In this document: one piece after another, positions 14,842 to 33,418 of the stretch
Layout: each line of letters opens with the position of its first letter
How positions within the stretch are numbered: position 1 is the first letter of the stretch
From: Halorubrum trapanicum
Lineage (GTDB): Archaea > Halobacteriota > Halobacteria > Halobacteriales > Haloferacaceae
DNA: 64,000 bases
Reading direction: 5' to 3'
Assembly (NCBI RefSeq): GCF_002355655.1
Contig: NZ_AP017569.1
Span: 1,426,001 to 1,490,000 of the forward strand
Made by a program: the position numbers and the translations under genes
The notes under the pieces: model-generated
What the model saw: only the letters and a program-made list of their open reading frames with translations
Database searches by the model: none
What the model was told of the DNA's origin: nothing

Positions 14842-15030
14842 AACCGCAGTGGCGCGTGCCTGTGAGGCCGCATCGCGGCCGAACAGCACCGCGCGAGGGA
14901 CGCCGCGAGCGACCGGAGGGAGCGAGCGGCAGCGAGGCGCGACGCGCCTCTGGCAGCCGGCGGCGGAGCTGCCGGCGACGAGGCTGGGGAGGTGTTCGCC
15001 GTCGATCTGAGCGAGATATCTTTTAAACAG
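14842..15030 (+). repeat. Element B1: structured intergenic repeat, compact copy
   Basis: Upstream of argS. It contains GGCGCGTGCC, GCGCGAGGGA, GACCGGAGGGAGC and GAGGCTGGGGAGGTGTTCGCC followed by a GATCTGA...TTTTAAAC end. The middle block GAGGCGTGAGG...GGGGCAG and stem b are absent, so the 5' and 3' conserved parts are fused. Short hairpins with 3-nt loops occur: GAGGCGC-GAC-GCGCCTC, and a nine-pair GCCGGCGGC/GCTGCCGGC hairpin with one G-T pair and a GGA loop. Confidence 0.65.
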
Positions 15031-15157
15031 CTACCAGCAACACCACAATCCAATTTATAAGCAACCGATCAAGCATACTCATTCAACCACCCTCGCTATC
15101 GATCAACAAGCACTTTTCAGCGACCAGACGTTTCAGGTGAAACTCTGTCTGAAGACT

Positions 15158-15590
15158 AGGATTTCAACAGCGCCAAATAATCGCCGGTAGACCTGCGGTG
15201 AACACCTCCAAGACCCAGCCGCTCACTTATAAACAGCTCATAACGGATCGGCGGTGAACACTTCCAAAGCCCCAGCCGCGAGGACTCGCGCGGCTCGCTG
15301 CGCTCCTCGGTCGCTCACTGCGTTCGCTCCCTGCGGTGCTTGCGTCGCCGTGCTTCGTCCTCGCGGCTGCCCCTTTGAGTCCCGCCCCGCACAGCCCCGC
15401 ACCTCACGCCTCCCCAGCCTCGTCGACCGGCCTCCGCTTCGCTCCGGCCGGTCGACTCCCTCGCGGGCGGTTCGCGGTCGCCTGTGGCGACCGCTCACCG
15501 GCGCGCCACCGCGATAACTGATCGTTCATTGATTCGGCTGTATTGACCGCTGCTGGGGCGGAATACATCACTTGTTGAGGATTTCAACAG
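15158..15590. repeat. 13-bp direct repeats AGGATTTCAACAG flanking element B2
   Basis: AGGATTTCAACAG occurs at 15158-15170 and again at 15578-15590, each followed by a GCC-containing A/T-rich stretch. They bracket element B2 and sit in DNA poorer in G/C than the surroundings. They may be the ends of an insertion sequence or MITE, or short flanking duplications. I see no transposase frame between them. Confidence 0.5.
15188..15520 (-). repeat. Element B2: full structured intergenic repeat, reverse orientation
   Basis: Read on the minus strand it has all family blocks in order: a hairpin GCGGTCGCC-TGT-GGCGACCGC (plus-strand positions 15474-15494), GCGAGGGA, stem a GTCGACCGGCC / GGCCGGTCGAC (11 bp; 15446-15456 with 15422-15432), GAGGCTGGGGAGGCGTGAGG, GGGACTCAAAGGGGCAG, stem b GCCGCGAGGAC / GTCCTCGCGGC (15357-15367 with 15275-15285), then two tail units of about 56 bp each with GGCTGGG-CTTGGAGGTGTTC and TTTATAAGT. 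No coding frame has haloarchaeal codon use here. Confidence 0.75.
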
Positions 15591-15666
15591 AGCCGATTAT
15601 TTATAAGCGAGCGGCCGAGAGTTCGGAAGCACCTCCCGCAGAACAGCCGATCCCGGAGTCGTATTC

Positions 15667-16602
15667 TTACGAGACGATCTCGTCGATCAGTTCACGCGCG
15701 CTGCGCCGGACCGCCGCGTCGCTCTCGATCGACGGCTCCCACCCGAGGTCGGCCAGCTTCTCGATCGACAGGCGCATCTTCGGCACGTCACCGGTCCAGC
15801 CGCGGTCGCCGCCGGTGTAGCTGTACTCGGGGTCGACACCGAGTTCCTCGCTCACGATGTCGGCGATGTCGGTGACGGAGGTGGTCGTCCGCGTGCCGAG
15901 GTTGTACACGTTGTACGCGTCGTCCGCGCCCTCGACGACGTGCTGGATCGCGTCGACGCACTCGGTGACGTGCATGTACGACTTCTCCTGCCGGCCGTCG
16001 CCGAGGATCTCCAGCTCCGTCGGGTCCTCGTCCAGCTTCTCGATGAAGTCGGGGATCACGTTGCCGCGCTGGCGCGGGCCGACGATGTTCGCGAAGCGGA
16101 ACACCCACGACTGGATCCCGTACGAGTGGGCGTGCGTGGAGATGAGCCCCTCGTCGGCGAGCTTCGAGGAGCCGTAGATCGAGATGGGCTCCATCGGCGC
16201 GTAGTCCTCGGCCGTCGGGCGCGGCGCCTCGCCGTAGACGGTCGACGAGGAGGTGAACGCGAAGCGGTCGACGCCGACCTCGCGCATGCGATCTAAGACG
16301 TTGTACGTCATCGCGGTGTTCTCCTCGAAGAGGACGCGGTCGTCGTCGTAGTTCGTGTCCGTGTACGCCGCGAAGTGGAAGACGACGTCGAGGTCGCCGG
16401 TGACCGCGCGGGCGACGTCGTCGGGGTCGGTCACGTCGGCCGCGACGAACTCGGCGCCGGCGGGCACCCGGTCGCGGGTCCCCTTCGAGAGGTCGTCGGC
16501 GACGCGGACGGCCGCGCCGCGGTCGAGCAGGTCGGCCGCGAGGTGGCTCCCGACGAGGCCGGCGCCCCCGGTGACGAGGACGCGCGAATCGGCGAGGTTC
16601 AT
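15667..16602 (-). CDS. NAD-dependent sugar-nucleotide epimerase/dehydratase
   Basis: 311 residues, extended short-chain dehydrogenase family (UDP-glucose 4-epimerase-like). Rossmann motif GGAGLVGSHL is at about residues 11-20, the catalytic Ser/Thr region is TSSSTVYGEA, and YGSSKLADE carries the YxxxK pair. The C-terminal half has FRFANIVGPRQRGNVIPDFI and SYMHVTECVDAI, typical of archaeal epimerases supplying sugars for S-layer glycosylation. Start chosen at the ATG at 16600-16602, because the Rossmann strand begins there; longer frames run into Arg/Ser-rich upstream sequence. No sugar cluster is adjacent, so substrate is unknown. Confidence 0.9.
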   Translation of the reverse strand: MNLADSRVLVTGGAGLVGSHLAADLLDRGAAVRVADDLSKGTRDRVPAGAEFVAADVTDPDDVARAVTGDLDVVFHFAAYTDTNYDDDRVLFEENTAMTYNVLDRMREVGVDRFAFTSSSTVYGEAPRPTAEDYAPMEPISIYGSSKLADEGLISTHAHSYGIQSWVFRFANIVGPRQRGNVIPDFIEKLDEDPTELEILGDGRQEKSYMHVTECVDAIQHVVEGADDAYNVYNLGTRTTTSVTDIADIVSEELGVDPEYSYTGGDRGWTGDVPKMRLSIEKLADLGWEPSIESDAAVRRSARELIDEIVS

Positions 16603-16669
16603 ACCGGTCGGTCGGCGCTCGCGGATAAGTAGGTGTGGAATCGGGACGGGGTCGGCGGTCGAGGCGCCG

Positions 16670-17110
16670 CTATAAGTTCTCGAACGCCTCGTCGACGATT
16701 TCACCGGTGTCGGCGACGATATTCTCCATCTCGTCGTCGTCCGGCGCCATCCCGACGAGCCGGGCGATACGCATGATCGAGACGTGGTAGACGCGCTGGA
16801 CGCCGGGCTCCTCCTCCCAGATAACGACGTTACACGCCATCAGCGCGCCGAGCTTGTTGTCGGTCGCGTCGAGCGCTCGGTCGGCGACCTCGGGGTTACA
16901 CGCGCCCAAGACGTAGTAGGGGTCGCGGCCCGCGTCCACCTTCTCGTTGAGCATCTCCGACGGCGAGAACTCGACGGGGACGCCGAATCCGGCGTCGGTG
17001 AACACCTCGCGGACGTGTTCGATCGCCGCCTCGTGATCCATCTCGAGGGTGGCCTGCTGTTCGCCGATGTCGTCCGGGTCGATCTGCGTCGGGTCGATGG
17101 GAAGCGTCAT
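16670..17110 (-). CDS. DUF302-family protein
   Basis: 146 residues. DUF302 features: a DHEAAIEHVREVFTDAGFGVPVEF N-terminal half and KLGALMACNVVIWEE in the middle, with the YYVLGACNPEVADRAL segment typical of the family. The fold is a small alpha/beta domain; function is unknown, though DUF302 genes are often near sulfur and redox genes. It is divergent from the HTH regulator whose ATG lies 163 bp away, and shares the upstream region that holds operator S1. Confidence 0.85.
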   Translation of the reverse strand: MTLPIDPTQIDPDDIGEQQATLEMDHEAAIEHVREVFTDAGFGVPVEFSPSEMLNEKVDAGRDPYYVLGACNPEVADRALDATDNKLGALMACNVVIWEEEPGVQRVYHVSIMRIARLVGMAPDDDEMENIVADTGEIVDEAFENL

Positions 17111-17215
17111 TCGTGTATCGTCTTGGACCTACGTAACAAAGTCTCTTCGGATGGCTCGGCGAGAGAGCGACCCATCACCCGATCGAACGGCGTTGCGGCC
17201 GACGCGACCGGGGGT

Positions 17216-17240
17216 AGTATTGTACTGTTTGGGAACAACT
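17216..17240 (+). promoter_or_regulatory. Sulfur-regulon operator S1
   Basis: AGTATTG at 17216-17222, N11, then AACAACT (17234-17240; a slightly better partner CAACTTT sits two bases further). It lies about 50 bp before the ATG of the HTH regulator at 17274 and just upstream of a TTTAA box. One arm matches the six-site consensus exactly and the other is degenerate. Suggests autoregulation. Confidence 0.55.
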
Positions 17241-17273
17241 TTAACCCGCTCTGCCGCCGTATCGTCCGATACG

Positions 17274-17690
17274 ATGACCGCGTCAGTGCGCGAGGACCTC
17301 GAACGCGACATGGAGTGTCTGGACCTCCTGGAGTGTATCCACGGGCTCAACGAGCGGGATCGGGCGGTGTTTCGGGCGCTCCAGCAAGCGGACGAGGCGC
17401 TCACCGTCGACGACGTGGCGGAGCGGCTGGGCTGCGAGCGCTCGACGGCGCACCGGTCGATCTCGCGACTGGTCGAGGCCGAGGTGGTCGCCCAGCGGCA
17501 GGTGAACTACGACCACGGCGGATACTACTACGTGTACCGGCCGCGGACGCGCGAGGAGGTCGCCCGCGAGATGCGGCGGCTGCTCAACAGCTGGTACGCG
17601 ACCGTCGGGCGGCTCATCCAGGAGTTCGAAGATCGGTGTGACGGGGGGGCGAGCGACGGCGGGGACCGCTCGGCTCCCTCCGGTTCCTAG
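17274..17690 (+). CDS. HTH transcription regulator of the sulfur gene region
   Basis: 138 residues. The central winged helix is TrmB/MarR-like: RDRAVFRALQQADEALTVDDVAERLGCERSTAHRSISRLVEAEVV, then a YDHGGYYYVY wing and a C-terminal helix REEVAREMRRLLNSWYATVGRLIQEFEDRC likely for dimerisation. Cysteines at 15, 21 and 54 plus one near the C-terminus could sense persulfide or redox state; that is inference. The ATG at 17274 was preferred over a longer upstream frame that crosses the promoter. It opens the sulfur region, and its own promoter holds the shared inverted repeat, so it is the obvious candidate for the protein that binds the six sites. Confidence 0.8.
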   Translation: MTASVREDLERDMECLDLLECIHGLNERDRAVFRALQQADEALTVDDVAERLGCERSTAHRSISRLVEAEVVAQRQVNYDHGGYYYVYRPRTREEVAREMRRLLNSWYATVGRLIQEFEDRCDGGASDGGDRSAPSGS

Positions 17691-17717
17691 CGGGCGGTCG
17701 GTCGCGTCGCTCACCGC

Positions 17718-17742
17718 AGTATTGTGTGAAACATACAAAATA
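17718..17742 (+). promoter_or_regulatory. Sulfur-regulon operator S2
   Basis: AGTATTG at 17718-17724, N11, CAAAATA at 17736-17742. It overlaps an A/T-rich TATA region (AAATAAATAAATC) ahead of the peptidase ATG at 17773. First arm exact; second arm weak. Confidence 0.5.
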
Positions 17743-17772
17743 AATAAATCGCTGGGGACCGAAGGGAGACGC

Positions 17773-19059
17773 ATGGCCGAAGACACGGGTGCGGCCGGAT
17801 CGGCGACGACCGGCGACGACGCGCCCGCCGAGTACGTGCGGGCCAACCGCGAGGCGCTGGTCTCGCTGGCCCTCGATCTGCTCGCGGTCGACACGTCGAA
17901 TCCCCCCGGCGACACGCGCGAGGTCGTCGCGGAGATCGAGCGGTTCCTCGACCCCCTCCCGGTCGCGGTCGAGCGGTTCGCCGTCGACCCGGCGAAGCCG
18001 AACCTACTCGTGCGGGTCCCCGGCGACGCCGACCGCACGCTGCTGTACAACGGGCACCTCGACACGGTGCCGTTCGACGAGACGGAGTGGACGCGCGATC
18101 CGCTCGGCGAGCGCGACGACGACCGCGTCTACGGGCGGGGCGCGACCGACATGAAGGGCGCCGTGGCGTCGTTGCTGTTCGCGATCCGAGCCTTCGCGGC
18201 CACCGAAACCGACCCGGCCGTCGACCTCCTGTTCGCCTTCGTGAGCGACGAGGAGGTGGGCGGCGACGCCGGGCTCCCGGCGCTGCTCGACGCGGGGGCG
18301 CTCGACGCGGACGCCTGCGTGATCGGCGAGCCGACCTGCGAGGAGGGCCGCCGCTCCGTCACGGTCGCGGACCGGGGAAGCATCTGGCTGACGCTCGAGG
18401 CGTCGGGCGAGGCGGCGCACGGCTCCCGGCCGACGCTCGGCGTCAACGCCGTCGACCGACTGTACGACGCCGTCGAGACGATGCGCGATCGATTCGGCAC
18501 CGAGCGGCTGGCGATCGGCGCCGAGATGGAGCCGATCGTCGAGGAGTCGGTCGCGTACTACGCCCCGTCGATGGGCGAGGCGGCCGCGCGGGACCTCTTC
18601 CGGTACCCGTCGATCAACCTCGGCGTCTTCGAGGGCGGCGACGCGGTGAACGCCGTCCCGGGGGCCGCGCGCGCCGAGATCGACGTGCGGCTGACGGCGG
18701 GCGTCCACACGCCCGACGTGCTCGCGGGGATCCGCGAGTGCGTCGCCGACTGCGAGGGGGTCACGGTCGCCGACGTCTCGTGGAGCGTCGGCACGGCCGA
18801 AGACCCCGACGGTCCGCTCGTCGAGGCCGTCGCGTCGACGGCGGCGGCCGTCACGGGGGACCGCGTCTTCAGGCGGAGCGCCACGGGCGGCGGCGACGCC
18901 AAGAAGCTCCGGAACGCCGGGATCTCGACCGTCGAGTTCGCGCTCGGGACCGACACGCTCCACGCGCCCGACGAGTACGTCCCGGTGGACGCGCTCGTCG
19001 ACAACGCGGTCGTCTACGCCCGGCTGCCGGCGGCGTGGCGGACCGAGACGGACCGATAG
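17773..19059 (+). CDS. M20-family zinc peptidase/deacylase (ArgE/DapE-like)
   Basis: 428 residues. Metal-ligand motifs in order: NGHLDTVPF (His, Asp), GRGATDMKG (Asp), SDEEVGG (Glu-Glu), CVIGEPT, and the C-terminal TGGGDAKK...DTLHAPDEYV with the last His ligand. An internal dimerisation domain follows EASGEAAHGSRP. It probably hydrolyses an amide bond in an N-acyl amino acid or related compound; substrate is not evident. The ATG at 17773 follows the TATA-like run at 17737-17748; the longer frame reads through the operator. It is included in the putative sulfur regulon only because of operator S2. Confidence 0.85.
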   Translation: MAEDTGAAGSATTGDDAPAEYVRANREALVSLALDLLAVDTSNPPGDTREVVAEIERFLDPLPVAVERFAVDPAKPNLLVRVPGDADRTLLYNGHLDTVPFDETEWTRDPLGERDDDRVYGRGATDMKGAVASLLFAIRAFAATETDPAVDLLFAFVSDEEVGGDAGLPALLDAGALDADACVIGEPTCEEGRRSVTVADRGSIWLTLEASGEAAHGSRPTLGVNAVDRLYDAVETMRDRFGTERLAIGAEMEPIVEESVAYYAPSMGEAAARDLFRYPSINLGVFEGGDAVNAVPGAARAEIDVRLTAGVHTPDVLAGIRECVADCEGVTVADVSWSVGTAEDPDGPLVEAVASTAAAVTGDRVFRRSATGGGDAKKLRNAGISTVEFALGTDTLHAPDEYVPVDALVDNAVVYARLPAAWRTETDR

Positions 19060-19142
19060 TCGACGCCCCGCACCCGCCCGGTACACGTCGGTGGGACGGT
19101 CGGGATACCGCGATCGCGACCCCCCTGTCCGAGTGTTTTTAG

Positions 19143-19167
19143 AATATTGGAATTTACTCACAATATT
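19143..19167 (+). promoter_or_regulatory. Sulfur-regulon operator S3
   Basis: Perfect inverted repeat AATATTG-N11-CAATATT (arms 19143-19149 and 19161-19167), 39 bp upstream of the TusA-like ATG at 19206. Arms differ from the consensus only at the G/C next to the first A. Confidence 0.65.
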
Positions 19168-19205
19168 AATACCACACGCCGGCAACTACCGCGTGTGAGA
19201 CAGCC

Positions 19206-19442
19206 ATGACCGACATCGAACCCGACGAGACCGTCGACGCGAGGGGCGCGGCGTGCCCCGGCCCCCTGATGGACCTCATCGGCGCGATTCGGGGCGCGGA
19301 GTCGGGAGACGTCGTCCGACTGTTGAGCGACAGCGAGGGATCGCTCACCGACGTCCCCGAGTGGGCCGAGGAGGCCGGTAACGAGCTGCTCGCCGTCGAG
19401 GAGCTCGACGACCACAACGCGTTTTACGTGGAGAAAGCATGA
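19206..19442 (+). CDS. TusA-like sulfur carrier protein
   Basis: 78 residues, TusA/SirA fold. The conserved CPGP motif (VDARGAACPGPLMDLIGAI) is near residues 18-21; its Cys carries persulfide sulfur in the family. First gene of the operon TusA / sulfide:quinone-type oxidoreductase / DUF1641, and its stop overlaps the next ATG (ATGA). Operator S3 is directly upstream. Likely role: accepting sulfane sulfur produced by the oxidoreductase (inference from context). Confidence 0.88.
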   Translation: MTDIEPDETVDARGAACPGPLMDLIGAIRGAESGDVVRLLSDSEGSLTDVPEWAEEAGNELLAVEELDDHNAFYVEKA

Positions 19443-20584
19443 CCGAGCGCGTCGTCATCGTCGGGGGCGGGACCGGCGGCACCGTCCTCGCCAACGACCT
19501 CGCCGATCGGCTCGAACCCGAGCTCGACGCCGGCGACGTCGAGGTCACTCTGATCAACGACGACCCCGACCACGTCTACAAGCCGGTCTGGCTGTACGTG
19601 CCGTTCGGACAGCGCGAACCGGCGGACGGTCGCCGCGCGCTCGACGAACTCGTCGACGAGGCGGTCGACCTCCGGATCGATCGGGTGACCGAGATCGACA
19701 CCGACGCCCGGCGGCTCCGGTTCGACGGCGGCGAGCCGTCGATGGAGTACGATCACCTCGTCTTGGCGACCGGATCGACGCTGGAGCCCGACCGGGTTCC
19801 CGGCCTCGCGGAGGGCGGCCACGACTACTACAGCGAGTCGGGCGCGACCGCCCTCCGCGACGAGTTGCTGGAATTCACCGAGGGCGAGCTCGTGTTGAGC
19901 GTCGTCGGCACCCCCCACATGTGTCCGGCGGCGCCGCTGGAGTTCGTCTTCATGGCCGACGACTGGTTCCGCGAGCGCGGCCTGCGCGAGGACGTCGACA
20001 TCACCTACACGTACCCGATCCAGCGCGTCCACGGCAATCCCCACATCGCCGAGTGGGCCCGCCCCATCATGGAGGAACGGGACATCGAGGTGGAGACGTT
20101 CTTCAACGCCGAGTCGGTCGACTCCGACGCGGAGACGGTCACGTCGATGGAGGGGACCGAGCTCGACTACGACCTCCTCGTGACGATCCCGCCCCACGGC
20201 GGCGTCGACCTGATCGAGGCGGCCGGGCTCGGCGACGACGGCTGGGTCGACGTCGACAAGCACACGCTGGAGGCCGAGGCCGCGGAGGACGTCTACGCGC
20301 TCGGCGACACCGCCGACACCGGCGTCCCGAACGCGGGCAGCGTGGCGCACTACCAGGCCGGCGTCGTCGGCCGGCGCCTCGCCAGCGAGGTCCGCGGTCG
20401 CCCGGCGACGGCGACGTACGACGGCAAGACGCTGTGCTTCGTCGAGACCGGGATGGATTCGGCCTCGTTCGTCGAGTTCGACTACGAGACCCCGCCGTCG
20501 CCCGCGCCGCCCTCGGAGAAGCTCCACTGGTCGAAGCTGGCGTACAACGAGTCCTACTGGCTCACCGCGCGGGGGCTGCTCTGA
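19439..20584 (+). CDS. Sulfide:quinone oxidoreductase-type flavoprotein
   Basis: 381 residues. An N-terminal FAD-binding motif, VIVGGGTGGTVLANDLADRL, is followed by DHLVLATGSTL and the second nucleotide-binding half with VYALGDTADTG. PHMCPAAPLEFVFM holds a conserved Cys used by SQR-type enzymes, and KTLCFVETGMD carries another. The C-terminal segment KLHWSKLAYNESYWLTARG resembles the membrane-associating tail of SQR enzymes. It oxidises sulfide and passes electrons to menaquinone in the family. Co-transcribed with the TusA-like gene (4-bp overlap) and DUF1641 (2-bp gap), the usual SQR arrangement. Confidence 0.85.
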   Translation: MTERVVIVGGGTGGTVLANDLADRLEPELDAGDVEVTLINDDPDHVYKPVWLYVPFGQREPADGRRALDELVDEAVDLRIDRVTEIDTDARRLRFDGGEPSMEYDHLVLATGSTLEPDRVPGLAEGGHDYYSESGATALRDELLEFTEGELVLSVVGTPHMCPAAPLEFVFMADDWFRERGLREDVDITYTYPIQRVHGNPHIAEWARPIMEERDIEVETFFNAESVDSDAETVTSMEGTELDYDLLVTIPPHGGVDLIEAAGLGDDGWVDVDKHTLEAEAAEDVYALGDTADTGVPNAGSVAHYQAGVVGRRLASEVRGRPATATYDGKTLCFVETGMDSASFVEFDYETPPSPAPPSEKLHWSKLAYNESYWLTARGLL

Positions 20585-20586
20585 CC

Positions 20587-21207
20587 ATGTCCGAGACGGA
20601 ACCCTCCGAATCGGCCGATCTCGAGACGGCGATCCAAGAAAATCCCGAGGCCGTCGCCGCGTTCGTGGAGCGGCTCGACGCGGTCAACGAGCTGCTGGAC
20701 GTGCTCTCCTTAGGCGAGAGCGCGCTCGACGACGAGATGGTCCGCGAGCTCTCGGCAACGGGGTCGACGCTCGCGGAGTCCGCCGACGGGCTGGCGACCG
20801 ACGAGACCGTCGCGCTGGCCGAGGCGGTCGGCGAGAACGGCGACGAGCTGCGGGCGGCGCTCGACACGCTGCTCGAACTCCAGCGGAGCGGGACGCTCGA
20901 CGAGCTGGCCGAGATCGCCGAGGTCGGGTCGCTGGCGACCGCGGCCCTTGACGACGAGATGGTGAGGTCGCTGGCCGGCACCGGCGCCGCGCTCGGCGAA
21001 GTGGCGCAGACCGCGGCCGACGACGACGCCCGCGACGGCGTCGAGACGCTGCTGAAGGGCGTCGGCGAGGCGGAAAGCGAGTCGCCCGAGCGGGTCGGCG
21101 CCGTCGGGCTGCTCCGCGGCGTGCGCGACCCGGAGGTCCAGTACGGGCTGGGCTACCTGCTGGCGGTGGCGGGCGCGATCGGCCGCGAGCGATCCGGTCG
21201 CGAGTGA
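20587..21207 (+). CDS. DUF1641-family protein
   Basis: 206 residues, helical, with two repeats of a similar unit (SALDDEMVRELSATGSTL and AALDDEMVRSLAGTGAAL) as usual in DUF1641. The C-terminal LLRGVRDPEVQYGLGYLLAVA segment is the conserved family core. DUF1641 genes commonly follow sulfide:quinone-type or formate-dehydrogenase-type oxidoreductases and may link them to the membrane; exact function unknown. Oddly, the last codons and the TGA stop (21205-21207) lie inside the first unit of a 15-bp tandem array. Confidence 0.85.
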   Translation: MSETEPSESADLETAIQENPEAVAAFVERLDAVNELLDVLSLGESALDDEMVRELSATGSTLAESADGLATDETVALAEAVGENGDELRAALDTLLELQRSGTLDELAEIAEVGSLATAALDDEMVRSLAGTGAALGEVAQTAADDDARDGVETLLKGVGEAESESPERVGAVGLLRGVRDPEVQYGLGYLLAVAGAIGRERSGRE

Positions 21208-21300
21208 GCCGATCGCGAGTGAGCCGATCGCGAGTGAGCCGATCGCGAGTGAGCCGATCGCGAGTGAGCCGATCGCGAGTGAGCCGATCGCGAGCGCACC
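21196..21300. repeat. 15-bp tandem array over the DUF1641 stop codon
   Basis: Seven units of GATCGCGAGTGAGCC: one imperfect (21196), five perfect (21211, 21226, 21241, 21256, 21271) and one imperfect (21286). The DUF1641 stop TGA is in the first unit, so every later unit repeats an in-frame stop. There are no spacers, so this is a minisatellite and not a CRISPR array. Confidence 0.95.
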
Positions 21301-21364
21301 GCTGGGGAGTCGTAGCGGGAGAACGGGAGTTCGGGGATCGGAACAGCGGTTCGTTTTTCGGCGG

Positions 21365-21955: not shown

Positions 21956-21957
21956 CG

Positions 21958-22203: not shown

Positions 22204-22224
22204 TGTGTATCTGCTCCGGTCGTG

Positions 22225-25940: not shown

Positions 25941-26480
25941 TCTTTATAAGTGTTCAATCTGACGCGGTGGCGCGTGCCGACGAGCGCCGCAACGCGGCGC
26001 GAGTCGCACGCGCGAGGGAGTCGGGCGCGACGAGGGCGACCGAAGGGAGCCCGAAGACGCGCCCGACGAGGCTGGGGAGGCGTGAGGTGCTGTGCGGGGC
26101 GGTGCGGGGCGGGACTCAAAGGGGCAGTCACCGGCGGCTCCGCCGCCGGTTTCCCGTGGCGCGTAGCGCCACGCTGCCGTGAGGCGGGCGCAGGCGTTCA
26201 CGAGAGCGCAGCTCTCGTGAGCCAATCAGAACGCGAAGCGTTCTGATGACGACGCAAGCACCGTAGGAACGAGCGAAGCGAGTGACGAGGAGCGTGGTTC
26301 GAAACGGCGGAGCCGTTTCGTCATCACGAGACGCCGGAGGCGTCTCGAACGACAGCGAGCGTGTGCCCGCCTCACGGCTGGGGCTTTGGAGGTGTTCGCC
26401 GCCGATCCACGGTCAGTTGTTTATAAGCGAACGACTCGGAAGTTAGAGGCGCTTTCCACCGATCCACAGCCAGTCATTTA
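25941..26480 (+). repeat. Element C: longest structured intergenic repeat
   Basis: Fills most of the gene-free stretch 25919-26713. Conserved blocks: GCGGTGGCGCGTGCC (25964), CGCGAGGGA, stem a GTCGGGCGCG / CGCGCCCGAC (26020-26029 with 26058-26067), GAGGCTGGGGAGGCGTGAGG (26068), GGGACTCAAAGGGGCAG (26111-26127), stem b CCGTGAGGCGGGC / GCCCGCCTCACGG (26177-26189 with 26365-26377), GCAAGCACCG, then GGCTGGGGCTTTGGAGGTG and two tail units 57 bp apart with TTTATAA. Six perfect hairpins, all with 3-nt loops, fill the variable parts (26130-26150, 26156-26172, 26198-26220, 26225-26247, 26301-26319, 26327-26347). No coding frame fits. Confidence 0.75.
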
Positions 26481-26603: not shown

Positions 26604-26628
26604 AGTATTGTACAGTAAGCCCAAAACC
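26604..26628 (+). promoter_or_regulatory. Sulfur-regulon operator S6
   Basis: AGTATTG-N11-CAAAACC (26604-26610 and 26622-26628). First arm exact, second arm five of seven. A TATA-like TTATAGGT follows at 26630. It precedes the small membrane protein and TauE/SafE exporter genes. Confidence 0.55.
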
Positions 26629-26713
26629 GTTATAGGTACGAAGCGGGTAGGGGAGAGTGAGCAGAAATGTGCCAGAAGCGAAATTCCGCGTTCGGAAGTC
26701 GGAGGGAGAGTCG

Positions 26714-26878
26714 ATGGCAGGATTAGAGATTCCCACGTGGGACCCGGAGACGGCCCTGCTTATCGGCGCGATCCTCCTGGAAGCGTTCGTGTTGTACGTG
26801 GGGTACGGCGGCCTCGAACGGCTCGTCGGTCCCTATCTGATGGAACTCGTCGTGGGAGGTGACGCGAGTGCTCGGTAG
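26714..26878 (+). CDS. Small single-helix membrane protein before TauE (DUF7512-like)
   Basis: 54 residues from the ATG at 26714. One strong membrane helix, ALLIGAILLEAFVLYVGYGG, with a Gly/Tyr-rich end and a short C-terminal amphipathic part (LERLVGPYLMELVVGG). I believe it is the haloarchaeal DUF7512 type, found next to TauE-like exporters. It overlaps the next gene, so the two are probably made together; it may be a small partner of the exporter (inference). Confidence 0.75.
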   Translation: MAGLEIPTWDPETALLIGAILLEAFVLYVGYGGLERLVGPYLMELVVGGDASAR

Positions 26879-27926
26879 CCTTCTCAGCGGGCCCGGCTTC
26901 CTGGGGACGAGCCCCGAGATGCTCGCCCTGTTCGTCGGATTCGGCCTCGTCGTCGGCGTCCTGTTCGGGTTCTTCGGCATGGGCGGGTCGTTCCTCGTCA
27001 CCCCCGCCCTGCTCATGCTAGACTACTCCGCCCCCGTCGCGGTCGGCAGCGGGATGGCGTTCGTCTTCGGGACGGCCGTGATCGCGACGCTGAAACACCA
27101 CGACCTCGGGCAGGTGGACTACAAGCTCGGCGCGATCATGATCACGGGGACGACGATCGGAATCGAGGCCGGGCGCGCCAGCGTCTACTACCTCGAATCG
27201 ATGGGGCTCGCCGGCGGCGTCATCAGCGTCGCCTACGTCGTCCTGCTCGGCGGCGTCGGGGCGATGGTCACCCGCGACGCCCTCAAGGGCGACGGCGGGG
27301 GCGGAATCGACCACGAGGCGACCGACAGGGACCTCGACGAGTACGAGATCCCCGAGATCGCCAAGAAAATCCAGCGGACCGTTCGCATTCCGCCGATGGT
27401 GACGCTCCGCGGCGACGTCCGCGTCTCCGCGTGGGTGATCACGGCCGTCGCCTTCGCGACCGGCGTCCTGTCCGGCTTCCTCGGCGTCGGCGGCGGCTTC
27501 ATCCGGATGCCAGCGATGATCTACGCGATCGGCGTCCCGGTGCCCGTCGCGGTCGGCACGGACCTCTTCGAGATCGTCTTCTCCGGCGGGCTCGGGAGCT
27601 ACCTCTACGGGCAGGGCGGCGGCGTGAACCTCGGTATCGTCGCCCCGCTGCTGTTCGGGAGCGCGCTGGGCGCGCGCATCGGCTCCGCCGCGACCGCGGT
27701 CGTCGATTCCGACGAGATCAAGGTGTACTTCGGCGGGATGCTGCTGGTCGGCTCCATCGCCGTGGGTATCGGCGAAATAGGGTCCTACCTCGGCAACTCG
27801 ACGCTTGAGCTGCTCGGACTGGTACTCGTCATCGGCGCGGCGGTCGTCGTCGCGGCCGCGGTCCTCTACACGACGGTCACTTCGCTCCGCGTGACGCGGC
27901 AACAGCAGACGTCGACCGCCGACTGA
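26868..27926 (+). CDS. TauE/SafE-family sulfite/organosulfonate exporter
   Basis: About 352 residues, eight or more membrane helices in two repeats: GFFGMGGSFLVTPALLMLDYSAPVAVGSGM in the first and GFLGVGGGFIRMPAMIYAIGVPVPVAVGTDL in the second, both diagnostic for TauE/SafE. A cytoplasmic loop of about 50 residues separates the halves. Start: GTG 26868 has GGAGGTGA six bases upstream, better than GTG 26859 which overlaps that site. It likely exports sulfite or a related anion produced by persulfide oxidation, matching the neighbouring dioxygenase-like gene. Confidence 0.88.
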   Translation: MLGSLLSGPGFLGTSPEMLALFVGFGLVVGVLFGFFGMGGSFLVTPALLMLDYSAPVAVGSGMAFVFGTAVIATLKHHDLGQVDYKLGAIMITGTTIGIEAGRASVYYLESMGLAGGVISVAYVVLLGGVGAMVTRDALKGDGGGGIDHEATDRDLDEYEIPEIAKKIQRTVRIPPMVTLRGDVRVSAWVITAVAFATGVLSGFLGVGGGFIRMPAMIYAIGVPVPVAVGTDLFEIVFSGGLGSYLYGQGGGVNLGIVAPLLFGSALGARIGSAATAVVDSDEIKVYFGGMLLVGSIAVGIGEIGSYLGNSTLELLGLVLVIGAAVVVAAAVLYTTVTSLRVTRQQQTSTAD

Positions 27927-28049
27927 TCCGCGTTTCGCCGTCGGATCCGCAGCTCCGATCTTGTACACTTGATTCAGAACAGCTGCCGAGCGGAAGCGAT
28001 CGGTCCGCCGTGCGCCGACGCGGTCGACGCGCCGAGCCGCTCTCGCCCC

Positions 28050-29660
28050 TCACAGTCCCTCTTCGCCGCCCTCCTGCGTGAGGAGGACGACCATCGAGAG
28101 CCCGGAGATGAGGAGCAGAATGAGCGTGGGGACGACCGCGTACTGGTAGAACGCGTTCTGCTGCGCGCGCCAGATCTGCGTGACGATCGTGTCGAACCCG
28201 GTCGGGCGGAGCACGAGCGTGACGGGCAGTTCCTTCATCGTCGTGAGGAACACGAGCGCGGCGCCGGCGACGATGCCGGAGCGCGTGAGCGGGAACGTGA
28301 CGCGCCTGAACGCGCCGGTCGACGACTCACCGAGGGTGCGCGCGGCCTCGACGAGCCGCCGGTCGATCTGGAGGATGGAGGTCCGCGTCGACCCGACCGC
28401 CTGGGGGAGGAAGCGGACGACGTACGCGAACACGAGGAGCGGGAGCGTCTGGTAGAGCCACGGCGCGTAGCCGGAGCCGAAGTACACCAACGCGAGCGCC
28501 AACACGATGCCGGGCACCGCGAAGCCGACGTACGTCGCCCGCTCGAAGATCACCGCGAACGGCGAGTCGTGGTTCGCGGCGAAGTACGCGACCGGGATCG
28601 CGGCGAGCGCGGCGGCGACGGCCGCCGCCGCGGAGACCGACACGGAGTTGAGCACCATGATCGGCTCGAACGCCAGCGAGGGGCGGCGCCCGGATTCGGC
28701 CCGGAGCAGCCACAGCCCGAGGATCCACAGGGGGACGAGCAGCGCGGTGCCGGACACCGCGGCCGGCAGCAGCGTCGCGGGCCAGCGCAGGCGGCCGAGC
28801 GACACCCGGTCGTCCGTCCGCCCCGCGTCGTCGCCGCTCGTGTTCCGGTCCGAGCGGACGGCCCACTCCAGGGCGAGCACGAGGATGACCACGACGAGCA
28901 GCTGGAGGGAAAGCAGCGCGGCGTAGTCGCTGCCGAAGGAGTTGTACTCCACGTAGATCTGTCGGGTGAACACCGGGAGCTGCATGATCGAGGGCGTCCC
29001 GAAGTCGGAGACGGCGTACAGCGCCGAGAGCAGCGCCCCGGCGGCGATCGCGGGCCGGATCGTCGGGAGCGTCACCCGGCGGAACGCCGCGAGCCGGCCG
29101 TGGTTGAGCGTCCGGGCGGCCTCCAGCATCGTCGTGTCGAACGACAGCAGCGCGGCCCGGGTGGTGAGGTAGACGTAGGGGTAGGTGTACAGCGTGATCA
29201 CGAAAATCGTTCCGGAGAGGCCGTAGATGTTGGGCACCCGCTCGACACCCAGCGGCGCGAGGACGTTGTGGAACGCCCCCTGCGGGCCGAACGCGGAGAC
29301 GAACGAGAAGGCGCCGACGTAGCTCGGCACGACGAGCGGGAGCGCGGCCGCGACGGACCAGAAGCGGGGGAACGGGAGGTCGGTCCGGGCGGTGAGGTAC
29401 GCGAGCGGCACGCCGATGAGGATCGAGGCGGCGGTGACGCCCGCCATCAGCACGAGGCTGTTGACGAGCACCTCGGCGGTGCCGGCGCTGAACACGAGGT
29501 CCATCGCCCGCTGCCGGTCGACGGCCGCCGCCCTGATCACGAGCCACGTCAGGGGGAACACGAGCGTGCCGGCGATCGCCGCGCACAGCAGCGTGAGCCC
29601 GATCGGGAGCTTGTCGTCGCCGTCGGTCAGCCGGTCGCGGATCCGGGTTCGCAGGGTCAT
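28050..29660 (-). CDS. Fe(III)-type ABC transporter permease
   Basis: 536 residues, two fused permease halves with about 12 membrane helices. Each half has an EAA-like loop: DTTMLEAARTLNHGRLAAFRRVTLPTIRPAI and DRRLVEAARTLGESSTGAFRRVTFPLTRSGI. This two-domain layout is typical of FbpB/ThiP-type transporters for ferric iron or thiamine. A matching iron-type binding protein is at 35863-37014; no ATPase gene is seen in the window. It is divergent from the oxidoreductase operon; iron box 1 lies 95 bp upstream and could serve both. Confidence 0.85.
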   Translation of the reverse strand: MTLRTRIRDRLTDGDDKLPIGLTLLCAAIAGTLVFPLTWLVIRAAAVDRQRAMDLVFSAGTAEVLVNSLVLMAGVTAASILIGVPLAYLTARTDLPFPRFWSVAAALPLVVPSYVGAFSFVSAFGPQGAFHNVLAPLGVERVPNIYGLSGTIFVITLYTYPYVYLTTRAALLSFDTTMLEAARTLNHGRLAAFRRVTLPTIRPAIAAGALLSALYAVSDFGTPSIMQLPVFTRQIYVEYNSFGSDYAALLSLQLLVVVILVLALEWAVRSDRNTSGDDAGRTDDRVSLGRLRWPATLLPAAVSGTALLVPLWILGLWLLRAESGRRPSLAFEPIMVLNSVSVSAAAAVAAALAAIPVAYFAANHDSPFAVIFERATYVGFAVPGIVLALALVYFGSGYAPWLYQTLPLLVFAYVVRFLPQAVGSTRTSILQIDRRLVEAARTLGESSTGAFRRVTFPLTRSGIVAGAALVFLTTMKELPVTLVLRPTGFDTIVTQIWRAQQNAFYQYAVVPTLILLLISGLSMVVLLTQEGGEEGL

Positions 29661-29754
29661 TGTACGGAGGAGGGAGTCGCTCTGTCCGAGCGAGGGGCCG
29701 CCCCGCGTTAGGGGTTCCGATCGCCCGGCGAGCGCACTCCGACGGATATATGAA

Positions 29755-29770
29755 TTTAGGGCTGCCTAAA
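29755..29770. promoter_or_regulatory. Iron box 1
   Basis: Perfect palindrome TTTAGG-GCTG-CCTAAA between a GATATAT TATA box (about 29745) and the ATG at 29778. Matches the DtxR/IdeR-type operator shape TTAGG-N4-CCTAA known for archaeal and bacterial iron repressors. Placement would block transcription start. Confidence 0.8.
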
Positions 29771-29777
29771 AAGTTCC

Positions 29778-30344
29778 ATGGAACTGACGCGACGCGACGC
29801 GGCGGCCGCGCTGGCCGCGATCGGCGCGACCGGCGGGGTCGCGCTCGGCGTCCGTCGGGCGACCGACGATCGGGGCCGACCGGGAGACGGCGAGGCCGAC
29901 GCGGCGTGGGACGGCGAGGGCGCCCCGGACGACGAGGCGGTCCGTGAGGCGATGACCGCGGCCGCGCGGGTCCTCTACCCGGAGGAGGTCTCCGGGATCG
30001 ACGCGTTCGTCGACCGCTTCCTCGACGGGCGCCTCGACGGGTCGGCGCACGCCGAGGGCGTCCGCGCCGCCGTCGCCGAGGTCGAGTCGGCGGCCCGGTC
30101 GTGGTACGACGCGCCAGTCGCCGAACTCTCGGCGGCCGAGCGCGACGACCTGCTCCGCGAGCTCGGCGCGGACACGGCCGAGGAGGACCCCGGAGGGACG
30201 GCCGCGGAGCGCGTCCGCTTCTTCGTCGTCAACGAGCTGCTGCTCGCGCTGTACTCGTCGCCGACGGGCGGCGAGCTCGTCGGCATCGAGAACCCGCAGG
30301 GGTATGCCGGCGGCGCGGAGAGCTACCAGGAGGGGCCGCGATGA
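29778..30344 (+). CDS. Gluconate 2-dehydrogenase subunit 3-like protein
   Basis: 188 residues. The N-terminus, ELTRRDAAAALAAIGATGGVAL, looks like a twin-arginine signal (RR followed by a hydrophobic stretch). The rest matches the small subunit of membrane-bound sugar and gluconate dehydrogenases: AARVLYPEEVSGIDAFVDRFLDGRL, FFVVNELLLALYSSPTGGELVG, and an NPQGYAGGAESYQEGPR ending. The small subunit usually escorts the flavin subunit through the Tat system. It overlaps the GMC gene by 4 bp (ATGA). Iron box 1 is 7 bp before the ATG. Confidence 0.82.
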   Translation: MELTRRDAAAALAAIGATGGVALGVRRATDDRGRPGDGEADAAWDGEGAPDDEAVREAMTAAARVLYPEEVSGIDAFVDRFLDGRLDGSAHAEGVRAAVAEVESAARSWYDAPVAELSAAERDDLLRELGADTAEEDPGGTAAERVRFFVVNELLLALYSSPTGGELVGIENPQGYAGGAESYQEGPR

Positions 30345-31999
30345 GCGGCGCCGAGAGCGTCGGCGACGGGCGGTCGGGGGCTGAGGGAGGCGCCGGCGAG
30401 GAGGTCGACCGCACTCCGGTCCCCGACGCCGACGTCTGCGTTGTGGGCGCCGGTCCCGCGGGCGCGCTCGTCGCCGACCGGCTCGCGGGCGACCGCGACG
30501 TGGTGGTCCTCGACGCCGGGCCGCGGTTCGACCCCGCCGACCGCCTCGCCAGACAGGAGCGGGCGATTCGGCCGTTCTACGGCCGGCCGGACGTGTGGGG
30601 CGTCGGCGGCGCGCGCGACGCCCACGAGAACGCCGGCGACTGGTTCTACCCGCTCAACCACGCCCGCGTGAAGGGGGTCGGCGGGTCGACGCTCCACTGG
30701 CAGGGGATGGTGATGCGGCTCCACGAGGACGACTTCAACTCCGGCACGGAGCGCGGCGTCGGCCCGGACTGGCCCATCGACTACGCCGACCTCCGGCCGT
30801 ACTACGCCGAGGCGGAGAAGGAGCTGGGCGTCGCGGGCGCCTCCGACAACCCCTACGCGCCGCCGCGCGAGGAGCCGCACCCGATGCCGGCGTTCGAGCC
30901 CTCCTACAGCGACTCGCTGTTCGCCGAGGCCTGCGAGGAGCTGGGGATCGACATGCACTCGGTGCCGAACGCGCGCAACTCCGAGCCGTACGACGACCGG
31001 TCGCCCTGCGTCGGCTACGGCACCTGCCAGCCGGTCTGCCCGAGCGGCGCGAAGTACGACGCGACGGTCCACGTCGAGCGCGCGGAGGAGAAGGGCGCGA
31101 CCGTGGTCGACCGCGCGCCGGTCGAGCGGCTGGAACACGACGGCGACGACCGGGTGACGGCCGCCGTCTACGCGACGCCGGACGGGGAGCGCCACCGACA
31201 GGAGGCGGACGCGTTCGTCGTCGCCGCCGGGGGCGTGGAGACGCCGCGGCTCCTCCTTTTGTCCGCCTCCGACCGCTACCCCGACGGGCTCGCGAACGGG
31301 AGCGGCCACGTCGGCGAGTTCTTCATGGACCACCTGTTCGCGGGCGCGGGCGGCACGCTCGACGAGGAGACGAGACAGAACCACGTCGGCTTCTACACCA
31401 GCGCCTGCGACCAGTTCTACGACGAGGCCGACGCCGAGCAGGCGCCGTTCAAGCTGGAGTTCTTCAACTACGCCGGCCCCTCGCCGGTGGAGATGGCGCT
31501 CACGGGCGACGACTGGGGCGACCCGCTCCTAGAGCGGCTCCGCGACGGGTACGGGAACCACATTGCGATGGGCGGGCTCGTCGAGCAGGCGCCGCGGGCC
31601 GACAGCCGGATCACCCTCGCCGACGACCGCACCGACGACCGCGGCAACCCCGTGCCGCAGATGGAGTGGACCGTCGGCGACCGCGCACTCGACACGATCG
31701 AGCGGGCGAACGAGATCCAGGTCGAGATCTTAGAGGAGCTCGGCGCCGACGTCGAGTGGGTCGCCGGCCCGGACGCGACGGGGCCCGCCTACCACCATAT
31801 GGGGACGACGCGCATGAGCGACGACCCCGATTCGGGCGTCGTCGACGCCGACTGTCGGACCCACGACCTCGACAACTGCTGGATCGCCTCCAGCTCCGTC
31901 TTCCCCACGAGCGGCGCGATGAACCCGACGCTCACCATCGCCGCGCTCGCGCTCCGCGTCGCCGACGACGTGGACGCCCGCCTCTCGGAGGGGACCTGA
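30341..31999 (+). CDS. GMC-family FAD oxidoreductase with Fe-S-type cysteine motif
   Basis: 552 residues. FAD site DVCVVGAGPAGALVADRL is at about 31-48, and GGSTLHWQGMVMRL is the GMC signature region. The C-terminal half has YHHMGTTRMSDDP and NPTLTIAALALRVAD with the catalytic His/Asn area. The segment CVGYGTCQPVCPSGAKYDA gives a C-x5-C-x3-C pattern like the [3Fe-4S] hinge of bacterial glucose/fructose dehydrogenases. It probably oxidises a sugar or alcohol outside the cytoplasmic membrane, carried by the Tat-signalled small subunit. Substrate unknown; control by an iron box suggests a role in iron supply or an iron-saving switch (inference). Confidence 0.85.
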   Translation: MSGAESVGDGRSGAEGGAGEEVDRTPVPDADVCVVGAGPAGALVADRLAGDRDVVVLDAGPRFDPADRLARQERAIRPFYGRPDVWGVGGARDAHENAGDWFYPLNHARVKGVGGSTLHWQGMVMRLHEDDFNSGTERGVGPDWPIDYADLRPYYAEAEKELGVAGASDNPYAPPREEPHPMPAFEPSYSDSLFAEACEELGIDMHSVPNARNSEPYDDRSPCVGYGTCQPVCPSGAKYDATVHVERAEEKGATVVDRAPVERLEHDGDDRVTAAVYATPDGERHRQEADAFVVAAGGVETPRLLLLSASDRYPDGLANGSGHVGEFFMDHLFAGAGGTLDEETRQNHVGFYTSACDQFYDEADAEQAPFKLEFFNYAGPSPVEMALTGDDWGDPLLERLRDGYGNHIAMGGLVEQAPRADSRITLADDRTDDRGNPVPQMEWTVGDRALDTIERANEIQVEILEELGADVEWVAGPDATGPAYHHMGTTRMSDDPDSGVVDADCRTHDLDNCWIASSSVFPTSGAMNPTLTIAALALRVADDVDARLSEGT

Positions 32000-32016
32000 C
32001 GGCGGCCTTTCACTAT

Positions 32017-32032
32017 TTTAGGCAAACCTAAA
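32017..32032. promoter_or_regulatory. Iron box 2
   Basis: TTTAGG-CAAA-CCTAAA, arms perfect, 18 bp after the oxidoreductase stop and 23 bp before the GT2 ATG at 32056. Confidence 0.8.
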
Positions 32033-32055
32033 AATTCAAGTGGGTACGGGCAGAG

Positions 32056-32925
32056 ATGCGGGTAATGAGCGACTCAGCGCACGCGACGAACGGGTCCGCG
32101 GCCGCGGTCGGGAACGGCAGCGAGGCGGCCGCAACGGACGATACCGACGCGACGAACGAGGCGGACTCCTTGGACGATACCGACGCGACGAACGAGGCGG
32201 ACTCCTCGGACGACACGGACGCGACCGCCGACGGCGGAGAGGCGTACACCTTCGACGACCTCAGCGTCGTGATGGGGACGTACAACGAGGAGGAGGCCAT
32301 CGCGACGGTGCTGGAGGACATCGAAGAGGTCACGAACGGGAAGGCGGAGGTCGTCTGCGTCGACGGCTCCTCCGACCGAACGCCGGAGATCGCCCGCGAG
32401 CACGGTGCGACCGTCGTCGAGCAGGAGCCGCAGGGGTACGGCGTCGCCGTGCGCGAGGCGATCTTGACGCCCGACCGCCCGGTGGTCGTCACGACCGACT
32501 GCGACGACACCTACCCGATGGAGGCGCTGCCGGAGTTCCTCGCGGAGATCAACGACGGCGCCGACGTGGTGAGCGGCGACCGGCTCTACCACGGCGCGGA
32601 TGCGATGCCGGCGTTCAACCGCTTCGGCAACCACGCGTTCGCGGCGCTCGCGAGCCTGCTGATGGGCGAGCGCGTCCACGACACCACCACGGGGATGCGC
32701 GCGTACCGCCGCGACGTGGTCGAGGAGATCGGCTGGACGGAGAACACCGGCCTCTCCGCCGAACTGCTCATCCGCCCGCTGATGCGGGGCTACGACGTGC
32801 GCGAGCGGCCGATCCGCTACGCCGAGCGCCTCGGCGAGACGAAGCTCGACCCGATCGGCGGCGGCGCGGCCATCGCGAAGTCGATCGTCACCGTCTGTCT
32901 CGAAGAGCAGCTCCGACGGTTCTGA
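32056..32925 (+). CDS. GT2 polyprenyl-phosphate glycosyltransferase (DPM1/DPG-like)
   Basis: 289 residues. After an acidic, Thr-rich N-terminal tail (about 70 residues) the GT-A fold starts at DLSVVMGTYNEEEAIATVLEDI. VVCVDGSSDRTPEIAREHGA and TTDCDDTYPMEALPEFL carry the DxD-type metal site, and HDTTTGMRAYRRDV matches dolichyl-phosphate mannose/glucose synthases. The C-terminus is hydrophilic, without membrane helices. It should load a sugar onto a polyprenyl phosphate on the cytoplasmic face. The tail contains two exact-length 36-bp repeats (32137-32172, 32173-32208) plus a partial third. ATG 32056 or Met4 at 32065 are both possible. Confidence 0.88.
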   Translation: MRVMSDSAHATNGSAAAVGNGSEAAATDDTDATNEADSLDDTDATNEADSSDDTDATADGGEAYTFDDLSVVMGTYNEEEAIATVLEDIEEVTNGKAEVVCVDGSSDRTPEIAREHGATVVEQEPQGYGVAVREAILTPDRPVVVTTDCDDTYPMEALPEFLAEINDGADVVSGDRLYHGADAMPAFNRFGNHAFAALASLLMGERVHDTTTGMRAYRRDVVEEIGWTENTGLSAELLIRPLMRGYDVRERPIRYAERLGETKLDPIGGGAAIAKSIVTVCLEEQLRRF

Positions 32926-33035
32926 GGGCACCTCGTCCCTCGACGCCGTCGTCGGACGGCGGTCCGGAGGTACACTGTGGGCACAGTGGACCGCCGCCGG
33001 CGACGTTTCTACACTCGTGAGCGGCGGCGCCGACT

Positions 33036-33418
33036 ACTTATAAATGAACGCGCGGATGCGGTCGGCGCGCGCCTGCGAGCGGCCGCCCTCGGCGGCCGCG
33101 AGCCAGCACGCGCGAGGGACGCGGTGAGTGAGGGGCGACCGGAGGGAGCCCGAGCGAATCGCGAGGCTGAGGAGGCGTGAGGTGCCGTGCGGGGCTGTGC
33201 GGGGTGGGACTCAAAGGGGCAGTCGCGAGGCCGCAGTAGGCGATGTAAGCACCGCAGGGAGCAGCGCGACCGAGGAGCGCAGCGAGCGTACTGCGGCCTC
33301 GCGGCTGGGGCTTTGGAGGTGGCCGCCGCCGATCTGCTGACAACTATTTATAAGCGAGCGGCTGGGGCTTTGGAGGTGTTCGCCGCCGATCTGCTGACAA
33401 CTATTTATAAGAAATCGA
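33036..33418 (+). repeat. Element D: structured intergenic repeat with 57-bp tail units
   Basis: Occupies the gene-free stretch before the ArnT-like gene. Order: ACTTATAAAT (33036-33045), a hairpin GCGGCCGCC-CTC-GGCGGCCGC (33079-33099), CGCGAGGGA, GACCGGAGGGAGC, GAGGAGGCGTGAGG-type block, GGGACTCAAAGGGGCAG, stem b CGCGAGGCCGCAGTA / TACTGCGGCCTCGCG (15 bp; 33224-33238 with 33289-33303), a loop with AAGCACCGCAGGGAGC, then two 57-bp tail units (33301-33357, 33358-33414), each GCGGCTGGGGCTTTGGAGGTG...TTTATAAG. Stem a is degenerate. It ends four bases before the ArnT-like stop codon. Confidence 0.75.

Follow-up and report, generated by a model that had tools for sequence, protein, structure and literature searches.

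A dispersed, multi-copy intergenic element of haloarchaea with conserved pairing: a candidate structured-RNA gene family

Introduction

How does an intergenic repeat keep its shape while its stems change sequence from copy to copy, and is it as RNA or as DNA that it folds? This question is raised by a stretch of 64,000 nucleotides from Halorubrum trapanicum (NZ_AP017569.1, positions 1,426,001 to 1,490,000; hereafter the window), in which an earlier note, made from the sequence alone, described copies A, B1, B2, C and D of an element with fixed blocks and covarying stems, and proposed either a repeated non-coding RNA (ncRNA) or a mobile element moving by folded DNA. Here, we collect copies of this genome (own copies) and of related genomes and examine their pairing. 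Pairing is conserved across the class while the sequence of the stems is free, in the own genome and outside the genus alike, and we favour, at a probability of roughly 55%, a multi-copy family of structured-RNA genes that is dispersed in haloarchaea and inherited vertically.

Anatomy and Conserved Pairing of the Element

The element spans about 300 nt and contains three hairpin domains as well as long unpaired blocks that do not vary. As read from an oriented alignment of 30 copies, it runs 5' to 3' from an optional TATA-like box through a 5' domain (GCGGT(C)GGCGCG, hairpin 1 and CGCGCGAGGGA), a variable stem a, GAGGCTGGGGAGG with a G-rich spacer, GGGYGGGACTCAAAGGGGCAG, a long hairpin and CTGGGGCTTTGG to a tail of 57-bp units with TTTATAAG, of which there are one to six per copy (motif count, 150 copies). 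In the core hairpin, helix P1 pairs CUCAAAG with CUUUGGAG (general form CUnAAAG/CUUUn'gAG); inside P1 lie a GGG/GGG internal loop and then P2, about 13 bp of free sequence, and the apical stem consists of 2-bp helices between small loops, mostly GA/GA. Between stem a and the core hairpin, complete Halorubrum copies have a block rich in purines. A reading frame through the core was rejected by eye, since the length of the spacer varies in steps of about 5 nt.

The complete copies described earlier, B2, C and D, are confirmed and have fixed blocks in common at levels well above chance. GGGACTCAAAGGGGCAG occurs exactly three times in the window (15367, minus strand, in B2; 26111, plus, in C; 33206, plus, in D) against 0.11 in shuffles, GGCTGGGGCTTTGGAGGTG has four matches at up to three mismatches against 0.02 expected, and stems a and b, as given in the note, can be read in copies C, B2 and D with their arms paired. 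GACCGGAGGGAGC does not hold as a family block, with 13 matches at up to two mismatches in the window against 8.2 expected; it represents one version of the loop of stem a, which is variable and has another sequence in B2. One block of D reads GTAAGCACCG and not GCAAGCACCG, and the element is longer than noted, adding a 57-bp tail with a TATA-like box that is tandem in D.

In alignments that were fitted to the model and hence lean towards it, with slid controls (partners moved by 1-3 columns) and shuffles as guards, 95.4% of cells pair among 106 distinct own copies and 26 of 36 pairs change on both sides, against 29-40% pairing in the slid controls. Among 39 copies from 16 genomes outside the genus (14 other genera), 93.6% of cells pair and 30 of 36 pairs change on both sides (slid controls, 30-42%); P2 is here 98% paired, with changes on both sides at 13/13 pairs. 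The paired columns of the 5' domain co-vary across 122 distinct sequences. Folded as RNA, copy D has a z-score of -2.73, with 2 of 200 shuffles as good, and as DNA it folds better than 189 of 200 shuffles. That both arms change together had been taken as a sign of selection for structure. Because hairpins are exchanged whole between copies, joint changes of the arms within one genome are by themselves no proof of such selection and are partly explained by the exchange; the comparison across genera, unlike that within the genome, is evidence of selection for structure, and to this extent the claim stands.

Outside the genus, the 30 loci that were read (16 genomes, picked for strong matches) nearly all carry GGG-Y-GGGACTGAAAGGGGC and GGGGCTTTC, a C:G pair of the Halorubrum P1 is swapped for G:C, and some loci have the core without the 5' domain. 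Head-to-head inverted core pairs were observed at loci L250, L255, L261, L265-L267, L271, L278 and L381, the last of these in Halobaculum. About ten own copies have cores of 207-220 nt owing to extra core hairpins (e.g., C1:2623004, 2788475, 608702, and 2547123).

Copy Number and Distribution

The own genome (3.08 Mb, three contigs) holds at least 150 copies at E<=4e-11 with model R1, which was built from 31 core sequences; a first search of the genome scored 40 of 354 candidates, and the copies listed here are the best 150 of 153 matches (6772 candidates, 150 scored). All 150 lie on the 2.84-Mb main contig, with 8% expected on the two smaller contigs (p 4e-6 under random placement). The block GGGRCTCRAAGGGGCAG gives 84+95 matches (179) at up to two mismatches in this genome, against 4+2 for the reversed pattern, and its listed places are likewise chromosome-only. 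Periodic spacing along the chromosome was rejected (coefficient of variation 0.91, within random).

BLAST detects the element in every genome of the genus that was searched (52 of 52), and among the matches listed, the relatives that bear the block are Halorubrum, save one uncultured archaeon record. At E<=0.01, R1 matches 308 of 391 genomes and 74 of 86 genera of the class, with much lower scores outside the genus, while in a sample of the phylum 55 of 392 genomes match at E<=1e-5, all 55 within the same order. Beyond Halorubrum, named examples come from Halobaculum sp. XH14, Halobaculum halophilum and Halorussus vallis, where the element lies in stretches without annotated genes; such is its position in the four named plasmid records that were inspected. 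It was not found in phages or, by exact patterns, in the viral contigs of IMG/VR, and 4 of 72,556 plasmid records match, on which counts carriage as virus or plasmid cargo was rejected.

Sense RNA or Folded DNA

Minimum-energy folds recover the conserved apical pairs of the own copies in 85% of cases as sense RNA, against 50% as antisense RNA, 44% as sense DNA and 36% as antisense DNA; outside the genus the corresponding values are 79, 54, 39, and 36%. The outer helices form in all four. G-U pairs outnumber A-C pairs by 96:28 in the own genome and 26:12 outside the genus, an excess that is expected if one strand folds and G-U is tolerated; DNA likewise tolerates G-T better than A-C. Apical folding and G-U excess both point to sense RNA.

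A TATA-like box precedes GCGGT at a fixed distance in 101 of 148 own copies (two with a three-mismatch anchor were dropped), mostly at 13-15 nt with a second mode at 18-21, against a background of 0.03 TTATAA per kb, and about 5-7 nt upstream of the box stands CGA, at 57-67% for each base. Box and CGA together resemble the haloarchaeal transcription factor B recognition element (BRE) and TATA motifs, given as CGAAA and TTWT in PMC4983044. A strict pattern of four tracts of three or more G (GGG-N-GGG, AAGGG, GGGG) is present in 125 of 150 own and 27 of 39 outside copies, and the conserved tracts might, as a hypothesis, form a G-quadruplex. That boxless copies are read from an upstream co-oriented gene is not supported, the orientation of the upstream gene being 28:21 without a box and 57:43 with one.

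Several observations weigh against a structured RNA. The consensus structure of the apical-pair test was first drawn with RNA energies, so that the test leans to sense RNA, and P2 has about 2% G-U, which is low for an RNA helix. Transcription starts about 27 nt from the centre of a TATA box, and the start expected here, at about +13 to +17 of the element, would truncate the outer arm of hairpin 1. The outer helix of this hairpin has correlated changes too, and as the predicted start falls inside a covarying arm, it is possible that the folded RNA has a promoter other than this TATA box; a calibration of the distance from box to start on neighbouring genes yielded too few cases. The box is missing from 47 of the 148 own copies and was not seen by eye in the printed loci from outside the genus (30 loci, 16 genomes), the strict G-tract pattern fails in 25 of 150 copies of the own genome and in 12 of 39 from outside the genus, and head-to-head pairs of the element, at 8 of 30 loci outside the genus, are not explained by an RNA. 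Finally, 83 of the 391 class genomes are without an R1 match and two near-complete genomes of the genus (G042 and G049, 93-98% complete) have weak matches only; the element is thus dispensable, and the family can be nearly lost.

Site Inheritance and Hairpin Exchange

Orthologous sites were compared for presence and absence, as the earlier note had suggested, and some sites at locus D are empty, but different species often have the element at the same sites. Around locus D, 48 of 51 genomes of the genus align; 20 sites, picked to include filled and empty ones, comprise 8 with the full element, 2 with remnants and 10 without a model match, some of the latter with 5' remnants by eye. No clean target duplication was seen by eye at the empty D sites. 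Comparing the flanks of own copies with 168 loci from other Halorubrum genomes yielded 87 syntenic sites, which belong to 59 own copies. The element is in the same orientation at 73 of these sites, opposite at 3 and absent at 11; the figure of 73/87 overstates retention because the target loci were chosen for holding the element. Inversion in place by a site-specific recombinase was rejected for the three opposite sites (flanks aligned for all three): in the two inspected at sequence level the element itself also differs, which makes replacement as likely as inversion.

Although sites are shared, two copies that occupy matching sites resemble each other no more than copies picked at random. 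Core identity is 0.769 at matching sites, 0.751 at non-matching sites and 0.767 within the genome (ten copies unparsed), and the true partner ranks at a median of 57 of 140 over 58 pairs. The hairpin modules recur, one stem a being present in 17 copies and 43 of 81 own P2 arms in other species. Distant modules are nearly independent, a shared stem a going with a shared P2 in 3 of 70 pairs (base rate 1.8%), whereas adjacent modules are linked (11 of 31 against 2.4%); unparsed copies number 31 for hairpin 1, 10 for stem a and 69 for P2. From this near-linkage equilibrium of distant modules and the linkage of adjacent ones we infer short-tract exchange between dispersed copies.

Genomic Context, Mobility and Alternative Explanations

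With genes called by a caller trained on 28 acidic reading frames of the window, 4 of 150 copies overlap a called gene by more than 60 nt. The 147 element sites with a called gene to either side comprise 51 convergent, 17 divergent and 79 co-directional ones, against 12, 36, and 60 in 108 comparison intergenics (at least 60 nt, same stretches), so that convergent sites are enriched (p 1.5e-5) and divergent ones depleted (p 4e-5). The convergent sites could suggest a cis-acting 3'-end element, that is, one that marks, terminates or stabilises the mRNAs of genes that converge, and in several genomes outside the genus the core starts soon past the upstream reading frame (L258, L264, and L277, by eye). 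We consider this explanation improbable, as between co-directional genes the element is sense in 33 cases and antisense in 46 (p 0.18), most own copies have their own TATA boxes, and the structure is nowhere specific to one gene. The absence of a sense bias argues for a stand-alone RNA rather than a cis element of one neighbouring mRNA, and as a stand-alone RNA the element, we think, acts.

Enrichment at convergent and avoidance of divergent sites would also suit a DNA repeat akin to repetitive extragenic palindromic (REP) sequences and bacterial interspersed mosaic elements (BIME). In such a repeat one strand would fold as single-stranded DNA, to which a recombinase, a transposase or an architectural protein binds or once bound, old insertions being homogenised by conversion and transcription being incidental. 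To this rival, which we judge unlikely but take seriously, also belong the head-to-head pairs (the 8 loci of 30 and Halobaculum L381), the empty and remnant sites at locus D, the near-loss in some genomes and the near-perfect Watson-Crick pairing of P2. However, the conserved apical pairs fit DNA energies poorly, G-U exceeds A-C on one strand, 101 of 148 copies have the box at its fixed distance, and the element is rare on plasmids and was not found in phages. Moreover, the Y1 transposase (PF01797), sporadic in its occurrence and present in one copy in the own genome, has no match in the carriers G045, G009, and G019, all of which have strong copies of the element, and mobilisation by Y1/RAYT was rejected. 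Neither core nor tail motif occurs at any of 42 IS200/605-family loci of the genus and its relatives, where 7.2 were expected from density and the best R1 match has E 0.02, so that an origin from IS605 or palindrome-associated transposable elements (PATEs) was rejected. A non-autonomous element that is active now, be it a PATE, a miniature inverted-repeat transposable element (MITE) or an IS605 derivative, appears very improbable: it would agree with the high dispersed copy number, presence and absence at locus D among species and the three syntenic sites in opposite orientation, but sites are mostly shared between species, the copies are on average about 77% alike with no young near-identical burst seen, IS605 termini lack the element, and the listed copies are confined to the main contig. 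In many copies TATA-like boxes point inward at both ends, but of 49 copies that lack the left box 37 retain the right one, and TTATAA as a target duplication was rejected on this ground. Close to negligible, in our judgement, is the chance that the hairpins have no functional structure and are by-products of GC-rich repeats whose pairing is passed on by conversion alone; hairpin modules are indeed common to different copies, but pairing holds over 16 genomes, 14 other genera and independent stems, P2 with its 98% pairing and 13/13 two-sided pairs included. Of the two proposals of the earlier note, the repeated structured ncRNA is thus the better supported, by covariation, RNA-sense thermodynamics, G-U excess and the fixed-distance box. 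Mobility by folded DNA is not supported, although the head-to-head pairs outside the genus and the empty orthologous sites are reminiscent of REP/BIME-type repeats.

Proposed Model and Implications

In the model of a structured-RNA gene family, the TATA box of each Halorubrum copy would drive synthesis of an RNA about 300 nt long, whose invariant unpaired blocks and loops would be recognised by a shared partner, probably a protein, with the variable stems as struts. In a cytoplasm rich in K+, the four G-tracts that are conserved (GGG-Y-GGG, AAGGGG, GGGG) could come together as a G-quadruplex enclosing P2. Copies would persist at fixed, often convergent intergenic sites, and hairpins would be swapped by gene conversion through the invariant blocks. 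In its fullest form, which we advance only tentatively, more than 100 genes of this genome would encode a single kind of structured RNA that has had no name so far, namely a hairpin scaffold bearing a K+-stabilised G-quadruplex around a stem of free sequence, inherited in position and with its hairpins reassorted by gene conversion. Every copy would then keep the shape and none its sequence, in a multi-locus RNA machine of the class; we know of no bacterial counterpart of such a multi-locus RNA.

If transcribed, the family would to our knowledge be among the most numerous archaeal ncRNA gene families, present in most sampled genera of the class and absent from Rfam. It offers a natural experiment in which a fold is kept while sequence shuffles between dispersed copies, and bears on whether G-quadruplex RNAs are used in a molar-potassium cytoplasm. 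Even as a DNA repeat, the element is inherited, often site-stable and chromosome-biased, and will confound analyses of haloarchaeal synteny, assembly and covariation.

Copies in the Window

At E<=1e-12, R1 finds B2 and D only in the window (Table 1). Copy C is a full copy enlarged by extra hairpins and is not among the 150 R1-listed genome copies; extra hairpins also occur in variable loops of about ten other copies. Of the two copies described earlier as partial, A is indeed a decayed 5' half that has lost an internal segment and gained a double hairpin, which pairs with the insert of copy C (85%, inverted-repeat search), but B1 is one tail unit of B2. The genes next to the copies in the window, which encode a phosphate transporter, a glycosyltransferase, an epimerase and arginyl-tRNA synthetase, are ordinary.

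Table 1. Features of the element copies in the window (positions count from the first nucleotide of the window).
Feature	Position	Strand	Basis or remark
TATA-like box (TTATAA) upstream of copy D	33038..33043	+	read in the sequence
Copy D, 5' domain: GCGGT(C)GGCGCG, hairpin 1, CGCGCGAGGGA	33058..33119	+	covarying paired columns family-wide
Copy D, stem a, variable exchangeable hairpin	33120..33163	+	91 distinct forms in 140 parsed copies
Copy D, core: GAGGCTGAGGAGG block, G-tracts, GGGACTCAAAGGGGCAG, long hairpin (P1, P2, apical), CTGGGGCTTTGG	33163..33316	+	model R1, 161.4 bits, E 7e-31
Copy D, two 57-bp tail units, TTTATAAG in each	33301..33411	+	Tandem Repeats Finder, 1.9 copies, 96%
TATA-like box upstream of copy C	25944..25949	+	read in the sequence
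Copy C, complete, extra hairpins in variable loops, plus first tail unit	25964..26429	+	core 323 nt
Copy B2, complete element; 5' end 15512; core 15264-15421	15259..15512	-	R1, 152.8 bits, E 3.9e-29
Tail of B2, including partial copy B1 (tail unit near 15175-15216)	15175..15258	-	inverted-repeat pairs
Copy A, decayed: 5' domain, inserted double hairpin (14927-14979), GAGGCTGGGGAGG fused directly to tail sequence	14847..15007	+	read in the sequence

A second repeat, a double hairpin around TCTGGCAGCCGGC, occupies variable loops of the element in the window (14927-14979 and 26127-26179) and at loci L018, L021, and L030, as if this smaller repeat targeted the larger element. Direct repeats of AGGATTTCAACAG lie near 15158 and 15577, about 420 bp apart, on both sides of B2, and could be another repeat or the footprint of an insertion. 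Upstream of D (32960-33015), and likewise conserved at L236-L249, is an inverted repeat of the form GGACGGCGGTCC...CACTGTGGGCACAGTG...GGACCGCCGCCGGCGACGTTTT, which comes after the glycosyltransferase gene in many species whether the element is present or not, and is likely a terminator or another structured element. At 21184-21294 the window has a 15-bp tandem repeat of CGCGAGTGAGCCGAT (7.4 copies).

Comparison With Known Systems

The element is a dispersed structured repeat or ncRNA family without a name in Rfam: Rfam 15 gave no family match at gathering score for the window, for copy D (searched to E 10) or for 16 loci outside the genus, and no description of it was found in the open-access literature. 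The nearest described repeats are PATEs, REPs and the G-tract repeats of methanogens, each of which fails at least one tested or stated feature. REP sequences are linked to RAYT. Enterobacterial repetitive intergenic consensus (ERIC) repeats are dispersed imperfect palindromes of about 127 bp in Gammaproteobacteria, with sites often shared between relatives and no known mechanism of spread; by description only, the element is like them in being dispersed at sites that are often common to related species.

With REP and BIME, which sometimes form inverted pairs, the element shares its intergenic position, many copies, hairpins and a place mostly beside the 3' ends of genes (PMC12306157); its own inverted pairs were seen at 8 of 30 loci outside the genus. 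REPs are short palindromes of 20-40 bp (PMC3733652), unlike the present element, which at about 300 nt comprises three hairpin domains besides its long unpaired blocks of invariant sequence and needs no resident Y1 transposase. The omega-RNAs associated with archaeal IS200/IS605 (PMC12558985) are likewise structured haloarchaeal RNAs tied to repeats; unlike them, the element is without association with tnpB or tnpA, nothing significant being found by the model at 42 such loci. The recurrent potential G-quadruplex repeats of Methanomicrobiaceae are also archaeal, intergenic and enriched tail-to-tail, with G-tracts and a hairpin, but differ in their short tracts, loops of 1-5 nt and a C-rich arm (PMC8044849). 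A quadruplex that encloses a long hairpin would escape the pattern used there, and the excerpted text reports no such repeat family of Halobacteria (PMC8044849). The PATEs of Haloquadratum walsbyi, short and transposase-free, reach about 177-194 copies per genome (PMC3119063). Their palindromes are near-terminal and related to IS605-type transposons, in contrast to the conserved internal structure, the fixed-distance TATA box and the count of 0/42 at IS200/605-family loci found here, but the two have in common that they are transposase-free, palindromic, diverged and present in many haloarchaeal copies, and that both are invaded by a smaller repeat, SMR-A in the PATEs (PMC3119063) and the double hairpin in the present element.

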